Source: Exiguobacterium mexicanum (GTDB lineage: Bacteria > Bacillota > Bacilli > Exiguobacteriales > Exiguobacteriaceae). Taken from it: a stretch of 64,000 nt of DNA. Below, piece after piece: positions 38,790 to 43,445 of this stretch. The notes under the pieces were generated by a model. That model saw nothing but the letters and a program-made list of their open reading frames with translations. It had not been told where the DNA came from and did no database searches. The DNA lies in the NCBI RefSeq assembly GCF_005960665.1, contig NZ_CP040676.1, positions 1,064,501 through 1,128,500 of the forward strand, read 5' to 3'. A program made the position numbers and the translations under genes. Position 1 is the stretch's first letter, and every line of letters begins with the position of its first letter.

Positions 38790-39695
38790 ATGAAGTTACA
38801 ATTTTTAGGAACTGGCTCCGGCATGCCCTCGAAACAACGGAACGTTTCCGGTCTGGCGCTCACGCTTTCGAAACAGACGTGGCTCATCGATTGCGGTGAA
38901 GCGACCCAGCACCAAATGCTTCATACGAAAGTCAAACCGCGTAAAGTCTCGGCCGTCTGGGTGACCCACCTCCACGGTGACCACGTGTTCGGCCTGCCCG
39001 GTTTCTTGTCGACGCGTTCAGCGCTCGATGGGTCAAGCCCGCTCACGCTTTACGGACCGAAAGGCATCAAGAAGTGGCTCGAGTTGACGATGAAAGTGAC
39101 TGGGTCGTATCTCGGTTATGACTTGTCGATCGTCGAATATGAGGACGGCGATACGTTCGAACAGGACGGTCATCTCGTCACGGTCAAACGATTGGACCAT
39201 CGTTTTCCGTCGTACGGATTCCGGATCGAGGCACCCGAAAAGCCCGGTGCGCTTCTCGTCGATAAAGTGAAGGCGCTCGGGATTCCGAGCGGACCGATCT
39301 ATCGGACGATCAAGCAAGAGGAGACGTTCGAGTTTGAAGGAGAAACCTATCTCTCTAAAGAATACGTCACTGACGCGGTCCGTGGACCAATCGTGGCGAT
39401 TCTGGGGGATACGATTCCTTGTCCGAACGCGGTCGTCCTCGCCGAAGGCGTCGATGTGCTCGTCCACGAGGCGACGTTCATGGACGAAGAGGCAAAGCTC
39501 GCCCGTCAATATGGTCACTCGACGACGGTCGAGGCGGCGACGCTCGCGAAGACGGTTCAAGCCGGACGCTTGATTGTCACCCATATCTCGGCCCGCTATC
39601 AAGGTCGGGATGATGAATTTTTAGACGAAGTCCGAGCCGTCTTCAAAGACAGTTTTGTCGCCAGCGACTTCTTCGAGTTTACAGTGGGGGATTAA
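38790..39695 (+). CDS. rnz: Ribonuclease Z
   Basis: The 301-residue protein is a short-form tRNase Z: FLGTGSGMPSKQRN at the N-terminus, the metal motif THLHGDHVFGLPG near 61-73, LDHRFPSYGFRIE, LGDT near 213 and the late HISARY. It removes the 3' trailer of tRNA precursors. In B. subtilis rnz (yqjK) is in the same neighbourhood. The stop is one base before the start of the next gene, so the following six genes may be co-transcribed with it. Confidence 0.95.
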   Translation: MKLQFLGTGSGMPSKQRNVSGLALTLSKQTWLIDCGEATQHQMLHTKVKPRKVSAVWVTHLHGDHVFGLPGFLSTRSALDGSSPLTLYGPKGIKKWLELTMKVTGSYLGYDLSIVEYEDGDTFEQDGHLVTVKRLDHRFPSYGFRIEAPEKPGALLVDKVKALGIPSGPIYRTIKQEETFEFEGETYLSKEYVTDAVRGPIVAILGDTIPCPNAVVLAEGVDVLVHEATFMDEEAKLARQYGHSTTVEAATLAKTVQAGRLIVTHISARYQGRDDEFLDEVRAVFKDSFVASDFFEFTVGD

Positions 39696-39696
39696 C

Positions 39697-40587
39697 GTGA
39701 CAGTACAACTATACGTATGGCTTGGATTTTTTGTCATCAGTACGTTGCTAGGTTTACGCTTGAATCAACTGAAAGAACCCGAACCGAACTTTTTCTTTAA
39801 ATTTTTATTTTTCTCTTTGCTCGGAATCGTGTCGTTCCCGATTGGCGGGTTCCATATCCCCATCGGTTTTCTCATGTCATTCTTGTTTTTTCCGAAACGA
39901 AATAGCCGCTATAAATGGTACGGTGCGCTCGTCGGCTTCTTTTTCTTCATCGTCTTGTTGTTCGTCCCGTTGTTTGATCAATCTGAGTTCCGGGCCGAGT
40001 CGCAACAAATCGGGGCGGTGTCGATTCAAGACGAGACATTTGACCGGATGACGGACAATATCTTACGTCGCATCAATAGTGACTCGATTAAACTCGACCG
40101 AAGCAAGATGGTGTTCACCGAGGACGGGGAACTCCGCTCGCTCGAATATTTGCTCATGGTCGAGCGCTCGAACTCGTTTCAACAGATTCGAATCAACTAT
40201 GACGAGTCCGGTGAGTTGTCGTATCGCCAAGTCGACGAGCTGAACATGGACTCGGGAAGTGCGTTTTTCGAGAAGCTCGTCGACTTTGAACATATGCTCG
40301 ATGCCGTACGCGACACGCCTTGGTCTGAATTTGCGGACCGAGTCGACGCGCCGCTTCTCCAGTTCTCGTTTGACGGCCTGTACGACATGTACACGTTCGA
40401 GAACGAGTCGATGCTCATGATCAATCGTGATCGCAGGCTCGTCAAGTTCTGGTTGCAACGAGAACCTGTGCTCGCCAACAGCATCCAATTGTCTGGGCTC
40501 AGTCAAGAAGGCCGGACGACTGGTGAAAAATATACGATTCTATACAATTATTCTATCCATCAACGAGAGGATTTGACCGACCAATGA
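39697..40587 (+). CDS. Membrane protein of unknown function
   Basis: The 296-residue protein starts at a GTG with GGGGG nearby. Three hydrophobic segments occupy the first 105 residues (VWLGFFVISTLLGL, FFFKFLFFSLLGIVSF and GALVGFFFFIVLLFV); the remaining 190 residues are hydrophilic and acidic, with EDGELRSLEYLLMVERS and repeated Asp/Glu, and lie on one side of the membrane. I recognise no family. It begins one base after the rnz stop and overlaps the DUF4430 lipoprotein gene by 4 bases. It may be an accessory part of the ECF-like system that follows. Confidence 0.8.
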   Translation: MTVQLYVWLGFFVISTLLGLRLNQLKEPEPNFFFKFLFFSLLGIVSFPIGGFHIPIGFLMSFLFFPKRNSRYKWYGALVGFFFFIVLLFVPLFDQSEFRAESQQIGAVSIQDETFDRMTDNILRRINSDSIKLDRSKMVFTEDGELRSLEYLLMVERSNSFQQIRINYDESGELSYRQVDELNMDSGSAFFEKLVDFEHMLDAVRDTPWSEFADRVDAPLLQFSFDGLYDMYTFENESMLMINRDRRLVKFWLQREPVLANSIQLSGLSQEGRTTGEKYTILYNYSIHQREDLTDQ

Positions 40588-40994
40588 AAAAACTGCTCCT
40601 GATGAGTTTACTCGTCCCACTTTTGACCGCATGCGGCGGGGAAGAAACGACGAACGGAGATGCGGCCTGTGACGTCGAACCGACGATTTCCGTTTATGAT
40701 GCTGCGACCGAGGAGACGTTGTTCCATGAGAAGAGCGTCTGTTTAGAGGACGGGGCGACAGTGCTCGATGCCCTTGAAGCGACTGAACTCGACATCGAAT
40801 CGGTCGGTAGCGGGGAGATGACGTACGTGACGGCGATCGACGGCATTCAAGAGAAGTCGGCCGGTCAATCGTCGGGCTGGGTCTACGCCTTTAATGGAAG
40901 CCCGGGCGACGAAGGCGCTGGGGCCAAAGAAGTCGAATCGACCGATATTATTCAATGGCGTTTCGAAGAAGATGCGATTTCTTTCTTCGAATAA
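40584..40994 (+). CDS. DUF4430 domain lipoprotein
   Basis: The 136-residue protein has a lipoprotein signal (lipobox LTAC, Cys17) and a single small beta-domain with ISVYDAATEETLF, DGATVLDALEA and SGWVYAFNGSPGDEGAGAKEV, the DUF4430 or transcobalamin-like pattern. Such domains occur in surface proteins beside cobalamin or other vitamin transporters. It sits in front of an ECF-like transporter and should present the substrate at the outer face. The two interior Cys residues (29 and 53 in the precursor) might form a disulfide. Confidence 0.82.
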   Translation: MKKLLLMSLLVPLLTACGGEETTNGDAACDVEPTISVYDAATEETLFHEKSVCLEDGATVLDALEATELDIESVGSGEMTYVTAIDGIQEKSAGQSSGWVYAFNGSPGDEGAGAKEVESTDIIQWRFEEDAISFFE

Positions 40995-41640
40995 GGCAGA
41001 TTGGGAGCGCAGACATCCGGTCACGCTCCTTTTCTTCTTAGTGGCCCATCTGTTCATCCTGACTTATTTAAATGACTCGGTCTGGTTCCTTCTTGGACTT
41101 GTCGGCCTGTTGCTCCTCGAACGACGGTTTCCGCTGGCGATGCTCGGTGTTTTGGCCGCGTTCATGCTGATCTCGTTTGCACCGATTGTTTTTGGGTGGA
41201 ACGTCTCTCTCATGGGCATCACGAATCAATTGATTCCATTAGCCACATTTTTGTTCGGTATGATCTGGGTGAACCGGTTCATGCGACTCGAACGATTGCT
41301 TCCGTTCTTGAACAGATGGCCGCGTTCGACCCGGTTGCTCTATGGGGGATGGGCCCTCGTCCCGTCGATGGAGCGGGCGGTGCGATTATCCATTGCGAGC
41401 CATCCGAGGCGCGAGTGGCAAGAGGCGATCGTGGTCGGTATCGACAGTCAACGCCTTGAACCGGTGTACGTGACGAATCGAATGCGACGTTTCGAACGGC
41501 ATGACACCGTCCAATGCCTCGTCTTGCTCGGTTTCGTGGCGATCGCCTCGATGGGAGTGCCGGTCGTGTGGTTACTGTATCCATATTTGACGAAAGGAGG
41601 GTTGCGCGATGCGTTGGTTATCCTTGACAGACGGACATGA
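40972..41640 (+). CDS. EcfT-like transmembrane protein
   Basis: The 222-residue protein has about five membrane helices (three before residue 75, one near 95 and one near 190-210) and between the last two a soluble, Arg-rich region (RLERLLPFLNRWPRS and SHPRREWQEA), the arrangement of EcfT coupling proteins. It overlaps the DUF4430 gene by 23 bases and the ATPase gene by 32. The canonical Ala-Arg-Gly motifs are not obvious, so it is a diverged member at best. It would link the ATPase to the S component. Confidence 0.6.
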   Translation: MRFLSSNKADWERRHPVTLLFFLVAHLFILTYLNDSVWFLLGLVGLLLLERRFPLAMLGVLAAFMLISFAPIVFGWNVSLMGITNQLIPLATFLFGMIWVNRFMRLERLLPFLNRWPRSTRLLYGGWALVPSMERAVRLSIASHPRREWQEAIVVGIDSQRLEPVYVTNRMRRFERHDTVQCLVLLGFVAIASMGVPVVWLLYPYLTKGGLRDALVILDRRT

Positions 41641-42571
41641 TGAATTCGATGAGTGGGTGAGGGAAGAACGAGCGCGAGTCATCCGCCTTGATACCCCGCT
41701 TGCCGGGAAGGTTTCATCGCTCATTTCTGGGAGTGACGCCCTGCGAGGAGCCGAACTGGCTGCCATTCTTCAAATCGATCATCTATTTCATAAGCGATTC
41801 GATGAGTGCTCAAGTGGAGAACGGCAACTCGTCCACATCGCTCACGCCCTCGCCGATTCAGCCGAGGCGCTCGTCTTGATTGAGCCGTTTCGACATTTAG
41901 ATCGGTTTCGGGTCGAGCATTTAACGATGTTGCTCAGCAGGCTGACCGGGCTCGGCGTTCGGATTGCTTACACGGATAGGGCGCGCGAACATAGTCCGTC
42001 CGGCGCGTTTCACGTCAATCCGACCATGAATCAGCCTCAACTTGTCGTCACGGACGTGTCCTATCGCCACCCGTTACAGGCGTCCTATGCGGTCGAGCAT
42101 GTGTCTTACGAAATGAAGGGGCCGGGTCTGACCGTCTGTATCGGTACGAATGGTAGCGGGAAGTCGACGTTGCTCGAATTGATTGCCAAAAGCGTGCGTC
42201 CGTTGTATGGGAAGGTCAAATGGACCGAGCGGCCGGTTTATTTACCGGCCGAGCAAGAGTTTGGTCCGTTCCTGCATACGACGAATCGTCGTCTCGCTCA
42301 ACTGCAAGCCATATTCGATTCTGAGGCATCTCTGTTCTTGTTGGACGAGCCAAGCGTGGGCTTGACCGAGCAAGAGCGCTCTCAGTTTGAACGGGCGTTA
42401 ATCGAGAAAGCCGGGACGGCGCACATCATGTGTGCCACCCATGACGAGCAACTGATTGAGGCGGCAGACCGCATCATTTGCCTGTCGAACGGGATGCTCG
42501 TCTTTGATGGGGATCGCAGCGACTATATGAAACGGAGTGCGCTATGGTCACATATGTCCTCATCCTCTTGA
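41609..42571 (+). CDS. Fused, complementary-degenerate ABC ATPase (EcfA-like)
   Basis: The 320-residue protein holds two ABC-like halves, each incomplete. The first half (1-135) has a signature-like CSSGERQ (67-73) and a Walker B-like ALVLIEP (87-93) but no Walker A, and only 66 residues precede the signature. The second half (145-315) has Walker A GTNGSGKST (179-187), Q-loop Gln216, Walker B LFLLDEP (242-248), the D-loop SVGL and switch His278, but only about 20 residues separate Q-loop and Walker B, so the helical signature region is missing. Together they could form one full ATP site. It should power the neighbouring EcfT- and S-like proteins. AAAGGAGG precedes the ATG. Confidence 0.75.
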   Translation: MRWLSLTDGHDEFDEWVREERARVIRLDTPLAGKVSSLISGSDALRGAELAAILQIDHLFHKRFDECSSGERQLVHIAHALADSAEALVLIEPFRHLDRFRVEHLTMLLSRLTGLGVRIAYTDRAREHSPSGAFHVNPTMNQPQLVVTDVSYRHPLQASYAVEHVSYEMKGPGLTVCIGTNGSGKSTLLELIAKSVRPLYGKVKWTERPVYLPAEQEFGPFLHTTNRRLAQLQAIFDSEASLFLLDEPSVGLTEQERSQFERALIEKAGTAHIMCATHDEQLIEAADRIICLSNGMLVFDGDRSDYMKRSALWSHMSSSS

Positions 42572-43089
42572 TTGCAGCGGGGGTCATGTCGAGGTTCGAA
42601 CGGAGTGACGCCCCGATTGCCGTCTTGACGCAAATTCTCGCTCTCGCGGTCATCGGACGTTGGCTGTTCGTGGCCATCCCGAATGTCCAACCTTCGACAG
42701 CGCTGCTCATGCTGACGACCCTTTATTTTGGATTCACGAGTGGGGCCATGTTGGCATTGTTCGTTCCGATTTTATCAGGTCTGTTGCTCGGGGTCGGCCC
42801 GTTCATTCTGTTTCAATTTTTAGGGTGGCTCCTTGTCGTCGTCGTCGTCTCGTTCTTGAAGCCATTGCTCCGTCGCTCCCGGTTGTTCCTTGCCGCCGTC
42901 GGTCTCGGGGCCGGCTTTTTATTCGGATGGACGGCCAACCTGTCCTTCGCCGAGGTGATCGGGATCGACTTCGTCAAATTGCTCGTGCTCAGTTTGCCGT
43001 TCGATATGGCCCATGGCATCGGGAATGCCATCTTTCTCGTCTTATTGCACGATCTGTTCGTTCGCATATTTGTACGAGAAGACGGGTAA
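42544..43089 (+). CDS. ECF-transporter S-component-like membrane protein
   Basis: The 181-residue protein has about five or six membrane helices and contains the segment GRWLFVAIPNVQPSTALLML followed by a long Gly-rich helix, as in ECF S components that bind a vitamin. It overlaps the ATPase gene by 28 bases, with GGAG six bases before the ATG. The DUF4430 lipoprotein in the same operon points to cobalamin or a related corrinoid, but there is no riboswitch to support it. The substrate remains open. Confidence 0.65.
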   Translation: MVTYVLILLIAAGVMSRFERSDAPIAVLTQILALAVIGRWLFVAIPNVQPSTALLMLTTLYFGFTSGAMLALFVPILSGLLLGVGPFILFQFLGWLLVVVVVSFLKPLLRRSRLFLAAVGLGAGFLFGWTANLSFAEVIGIDFVKLLVLSLPFDMAHGIGNAIFLVLLHDLFVRIFVREDG

Positions 43090-43124: not shown

Positions 43125-43445
43125 ATGAGCGGATACGTCAATCTAGTTGAAATCGGTTGGTTTCTTTTCATTGGACTGTTGTTTATGGGACTCAATTTAT
43201 TGTTGATGTCTCGTCGTCTCATTCGAACGCGCTATGGGATGCTCAGTATTCTCGGCGCGAGTGTATGGCCTGCACTAATGATCGTCCTGTCTGTACAAGG
43301 GGGACGCGTCCTTGACGGACTGGCCGAGCGAGCGGTCACGCTCGAGAGCGTGTTGGCCTGGGCAGTCATCGTGGCGACGGCTCTGATGGTGTGTATTCCG
43401 GGTGTTGCACTGATTCGGCGCATGGTGCAGTTGGCTCGACATTGA
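43125..43445 (+). CDS. Small membrane protein of unknown function
   Basis: The 106-residue protein has three hydrophobic stretches (about 10-28, 40-58 and 74-96). I recognise no family. GAGGTGAC precedes the ATG, 36 bases after the S-like gene. It is the last gene of the rnz-ECF transcript, followed by a strong terminator. Confidence 0.7.
   Translation: MSGYVNLVEIGWFLFIGLLFMGLNLLLMSRRLIRTRYGMLSILGASVWPALMIVLSVQGGRVLDGLAERAVTLESVLAWAVIVATALMVCIPGVALIRRMVQLARH

Follow-up and report, generated by a model that had tools for sequence, protein, structure and literature searches.

The ABC ATPase of 320 residues encoded at positions 41609..42571 (+ strand) of the window, by which we mean the whole analysed stretch of 64,000 nucleotides, is in our view probably a motor that has been reduced from a two-site fused tandem EcfA to a single ATP site; it would belong to a group I ECF transporter whose substrate is most likely cobalamin. 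On balance, we also favor the more general reading that it represents a natural ABC importer motor with one ATP site in one polypeptide, no second site, one helical subdomain and an EcfT partner minus its coupling motif. An ATP site of an ABC dimer is composed of the Walker A, Walker B, A-, Q- and H-loops of one domain and the signature of its partner (PMC7756269), and it is the distribution of these elements over the two halves of the chain that carries our argument.

Across 30 aligned orthologues, neither half holds the full ABC set (Walker A, Q-loop, signature, Walker B, D-loop and H-loop) in one domain. The N-half carries the signature CSSGERQ (residues 67-73, 41807..41827; this and the following motifs lie on the + strand), in which S68, G70, E71 and Q73 occur in 30/30, giving the pattern SxGExQ across orthologues, and a Leu-Asp D-loop (residues 97-98, 41897..41902; 30/30); its Walker A is absent and its switch histidine gone in every one of the 30. 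The C-half possesses a Walker A, GTNGSGKST (residues 179-187, 42143..42169; G179, N181, G182, G184, K185 and T187 in 30/30), a Walker B, LFLLDEP (residues 242-248, 42332..42352; D246, E247 and P248 in 30/30), and the switch histidine H278 (42440..42442; 30/30), and it is the C-half that lacks a signature and a helical subdomain in 30/30. The original prediction, made from the letters of this one gene, named the N-half signature, the missing N-half Walker A, the C-half Walker A, Walker B and switch histidine and the missing signature region of the C-half, and on these points it holds for the whole set of orthologues. Its assignment of a Walker B to the N-half stands only in part: the strand LVLIEP (residues 88-93, 41870..41887) retains its Pro and, in 28/30, its Glu, and the Asp has been replaced in all 30. 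The C-half Q-loop and D-loop that it also listed are both degenerate. The former Q-loop reads Pro-Ala (residues 213-214, 42245..42250) where the fused EcfA proteins have YLPQ, the Gln being found in 0/30 orthologues, with YLPA in 27 and YLPP in three, and the nearby Q216 is present in just 5/30. The D-loop persists as the remnant Gly-Leu-Thr (residues 251-253, 42359..42367), its Asp having changed to Thr or Ser in 28/30. A Gly-Lys pair in the N-half (residues 33-34) was also considered as a remnant of Walker A on the strength of one alignment; this now seems less likely, because trimmed and NBD-wide alignments, as well as the N-half model described below, place this stretch after the Q-loop region.

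Judged by these motifs, the two halves appear complementary, the N-half keeping the elements that act in trans and the C-half those that act in cis, with the exception of the Q-loop. A single Walker A and a single signature in 30/30 do not provide for the two composite sites of fused EcfA, nor for a degenerate second site, in which an altered Walker A and signature still form a site, as both motifs are absent here. It had been proposed that the protein would have exactly one complete site, built from the C-half Walker A and the N-half signature; the motif counts support this, again with the Q-loop excepted, and suggest that one composite ATP site remains, whose closed form we infer. D-loops, too, act across the interface of an ABC dimer, and the loss of the C-half D-loop Asp, even though it corrects the earlier assignment, fits the one-site idea. 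The Q-loop Gln normally ties the ATP site to the helical subdomain and the membrane part and is a ligand of Mg. Its loss is understandable in a C-half that has no helical subdomain for it to link; it does, however, also remove the Mg ligand from the retained site, and this counts against the one-site reading.

Structure prediction adds to this picture for the halves taken singly. The AlphaFold model of the whole chain (pLDDT 78.5, pTM 0.60) was built on an alignment of distant two-domain ABC proteins that constrains the first 44 residues poorly; it does not place the halves against each other with confidence, and when Foldseek compares it with two-domain ABC proteins the rmsd values are 20-30. 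Prediction of the monomer, suggested at the outset as a check, did not, at a pTM of 0.60, resolve the packing of the halves or the composite site; each half considered separately has an NBD-type fold. Residues 143-315 of the C-half superimpose on EcfA of 8bms, an ATP-bound ECF module, over 173 residues (Z 21.3, rmsd 2.5). About 65 of the 238 residues in that EcfA chain are left without a counterpart in the C-half, and these would correspond to the helical region, which agrees with the prediction that the signature-bearing helical region has been deleted. The N-half modelled alone (residues 1-136; pLDDT 82.6, pTM 0.77) aligns with all its 136 residues to about residues 35-215 of EcfA/CbiO (3gfo, Z 14.1, rmsd 2.3; 4hlu, Z 14.0), in the order strand, collapsed P-loop, helix, strand, short helical part, signature helix, Walker B strand, helix and strand. 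The N-half had been described as lacking Walker A; Walker A is indeed absent, and the model presents the whole half as a compressed ABC domain, a result that leans on an alignment cut to this region and is to be taken as consistency rather than proof. As a separate observation, a two-domain ABC protein of Streptococcus suis (L082:5902-7284) has an N-domain almost devoid of the helical subdomain, with LSGGE only a few residues past the Q-loop.

The gene encoding this protein has an intact frame that begins with ATG and is preceded by a strong ribosome-binding site, aaaggaggg. It overlaps both of its neighbors, the T-like gene ending at 41640 and the S-component gene starting at 42544, as would be expected of an operon with translational coupling. 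Pfam recognizes a single ABC_tran domain, best in residues 164-212, with 50.7 bits for PF00005, above the family cut-off of 25. In a search of 101 genomes, full-length orthologues were found in 19/19 genomes of the same genus (55-90% identity) and 19/19 of a sister genus (about 31-36%), and in all these 38 genomes of the host family the frames are intact and the protein has the same length. By its gene content and its two genera, this family of soil and water bacteria is probably Exiguobacteriaceae. Pairwise dN/dS is about 0.11 overall, ~0.09-0.10 for residues 45-135, 0.10-0.11 for the C-half and ~0.2 for residues 1-44; both halves are under purifying selection. A profile search of 399 Bacilli genomes and 398 genomes of the phylum returned no homologue outside the host family at E 1e-20, a wider scan of contigs brought up generic ABC proteins only, and a scan of viral sequences gave no match. 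The search for homologues with the same split thus ended with the reduced form in 38/38 members of the host family; close homologues with full halves were looked for and not found, two-site forms being confined to other genera.

These two-site forms reveal where the protein may have come from. The CbrT-like S-component family occurs in 45/145 sampled Bacilli genera, and 61 loci outside the host family were readable. At 54 of them a fused tandem EcfA adjoins the S component, usually in the order DUF4430 protein, EcfT, EcfA and CbrT; the other seven have a DUF4430-CbrT pair with no adjacent ATPase. Two Walker A motifs are present in the fused ATPases of all 53 uncut loci, the 54th (L193) being cut by the end of its contig, and two signatures were recognized by pattern in all uncut ones save L205, where the first signature is a variant that the pattern missed. 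Aligned by hhalign to 19 fused EcfA proteins, the one-site ATPase gives one collinear match (45-314 against 139-549; P 100, E 2.3e-44), which points to shared ancestry along the whole chain and would make it either a reduced descendant of a two-site group I ECF ATPase or close kin to one. Among the 54 CbrT operons of other Bacilli, no form intermediate between two sites and one was seen; the short ATPase of L193 had been a candidate, and was dropped on account of the contig end.

The surroundings of the gene correspond to those of its two-site relatives. Upstream lie a DUF4430 lipoprotein (40584..40994, + strand; PF14478, E 3.5e-14), a type of neighbor found also in CbrT operons of other Bacilli, and a candidate EcfT-like membrane protein, divergent and shortened to 222 residues (40972..41640, + strand; it may start earlier, at 40894). 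Downstream is a CbrT-like S component of 181 residues (42544..43089, + strand; E 3.1e-22 in a profile comparison with PDB 6fnp_A; PF12822). Since S component, EcfT and ATPase are encoded together, both in the window and at orthologous loci, as judged by gene order and overlaps, the operon probably encodes a reduced group I ECF transporter. Operons of this group in other Bacilli (for example L149, L156 and L169) share with it the gene order, the partners, the collinear ATPase and the CbrT-type S component; they differ in having an ATPase of 535-775 residues in the listed ORFs (a few of whose starts are probably too long) with two Walker A motifs, two signatures and two sites, an EcfT of about 286-330 residues with an Ala-Arg-Gly motif, which the 222-residue T-like protein does not have, and an S component of about 220-300 residues rather than 181. 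Two further membrane proteins are encoded at the edges of the operon. One of 106 residues lies directly downstream of the S-component gene (43125..43445, + strand); by ORF listing it occupies the same place in host-family loci, where it measures about 106-128 residues, and it is without a family match and may be an extra subunit. The other, of 310 residues (39655-40587), is encoded by a gene that shares four bases with the DUF4430 gene, and its downstream end also precedes the DUF4430 gene in orthologous loci.

Like the ATPase, the T-like protein has shrunk. It has no convincing match in Pfam, the CbiQ/EcfT model misses it, and among 399 Bacilli genomes it is restricted to the host family; alignment of its profile by hhalign to 19 EcfT proteins (P 90, E 1.6e-6) hints, weakly, at homology. 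The two coupling helices of an ECF transporter end in X-Arg-X motifs, by which they are anchored in the two ATPases (PMC10368641). In the operons of other Bacilli, 19/19 EcfT proteins close a coupling helix with an Ala/Ser/Gly-Arg-Gly-Tyr/Phe-Gly motif, which is present in 0/28 T-like proteins. The loss of one helical subdomain by the ATPase and the loss of the coupling motif by EcfT would fit each other.

The substrate of the S component is most likely cobalamin, an assignment based on its match to CbrT, its DUF4430 partner and a PduO-type cobalamin adenosyltransferase, which is present in 38/38 genomes of the host family. The structure matched, 6FNP, shows ECF-CbrT, which transports cobalamin in Lactobacillus delbrueckii (PMC5997447). 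At two loci elsewhere (L146:6494-8136 and L175:6001-7601), DUF4430-CbrT pairs without ATPase genes adjoin a PduO-type-like cobalamin adenosyltransferase, a neighborhood that supports cobalamin for this S-component family. The only PF02310 match in the genome is a MerR-type regulator with a B12-binding domain (L177:1447-2304), a possible user of imported cobalamin. No riboswitch was detected in the window at the Rfam gathering score and no cobalamin riboswitch in the genome, so that the assignment rests on homology.

The model that we favor can be described as follows. A single ATP would be sandwiched within one chain, held on one side by the Walker A, Walker B and switch histidine that the C-half contributes and on the other by the N-half signature and D-loop. 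Binding would close the C-half onto the N-half, and hydrolysis would reopen and reset the motor. Closure would move the single remaining helical subdomain, that of the N-half, and this movement would be transmitted to the shortened EcfT, which would in turn topple the CbrT-like S component and then let it return. Since the second nucleotide site is absent altogether, one ATP per cycle must presumably suffice, and on the empty side something other than ATP would act as the hinge. Besides the lost Q-loop Gln, the low confidence with which the halves are placed in the predicted monomer, the weak homology of the T-like protein to EcfT and, as regards the substrate, the missing cobalamin riboswitch speak against this model.

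The motifs on which this model is founded would serve an intermolecular site equally well, and sequence cannot distinguish between the two arrangements. The main rival is therefore a swapped homodimer, in which the signature in the N-half of each chain would pair with the Walker A in the other chain's C-half, giving two complete sites. We hold this to be rather unlikely, given that both halves lie within one chain that is collinear with a fused pseudo-dimer and that the operon contains one shortened EcfT and no sign of a second coupling partner. The genome also encodes EcfA1, EcfA2 and EcfT as a complete set and has another operon with tandem EcfA (L166, L167), and these, along with the lost C-half Q-loop Gln and the great divergence of the T-like protein, could be taken to mean that ATPase activity has been lost, that the protein now serves as an ATP sensor or structural subunit, and that the CbrT-like S component is powered by the housekeeping EcfA1/EcfA2, with the T-like protein as an accessory. 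A pure scaffold, however, would have no need of the invariant catalytic residues E247, D246, K185 and H278, and the low dN/dS extends over both halves, which makes this explanation quite unlikely as well.

A milder departure from our model retains the one-site motor as proposed and assigns to it another corrinoid or an unrelated micronutrient as substrate. In its favor, families of S components can switch specificity, and no cobalamin riboswitch was found in the genome; against it stand the CbrT profile match, the DUF4430 partner and the adenosyltransferase encoded in all host-family genomes, and we consider it unlikely. Finally, both halves miss large parts that the fused EcfA proteins of other genera possess, which might be expected of a decaying pseudogene or of a local frameshift or deletion in an ordinary two-site ATPase. 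Yet 38 genomes of two genera share the architecture, with intact frames and low dN/dS; the orthologues rule out a local lesion, and we find decay hardly tenable.

Several known systems come close to this motor in one respect or another. ECF-CbrT, a group II transporter, has an S component of the same family, but it relies on shared EcfA, EcfA' and EcfT, and its EcfA and EcfA' hold all motifs; a cost of two ATP hydrolysed for each cobalamin has been put forward, as a speculation, by its authors (PMC5997447). TAP, CFTR, Pdr5 and TM287/288 likewise have just one hydrolysis-competent site; unlike the ATPase described here, which has no second Walker A or signature, they retain two full NBD folds, and the degenerate second site of such asymmetric transporters still binds ATP and may act as a hinge (PMC7756269). 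Human ABCB5 beta resembles our protein in having an N-terminal NBD without A-loop and Walker A. It differs in that its second NBD is complete, that it carries a membrane domain, that a full-length gene gives rise to it as one isoform and that it depends on homo- or heterodimerisation for its function; no complementary loss in its other half was found described (PMC11391348). In the literature searched, which was large and incomplete, we found nothing comparable on a one-site ABC ATPase of this kind or on ECF transporters of Exiguobacterium. Degenerate second sites are well known; an ABC motor that has lost its second site wholly by complementary loss was not found described in this incomplete body of work.

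Whether two ATP are needed per ABC cycle, and why a second site that does not hydrolyse should be kept, are old questions that have usually been approached with mutants. If our reading is true, a natural and conserved motor without a second site would give a direct answer as to whether one ATP suffices and by what means the hinge is replaced. That the ATPase and EcfT have shrunk in parallel would amount to a natural experiment on how closure around ATP is passed to the membrane part, and a one-site motor would let biologists test the need of such pumps for two sites.
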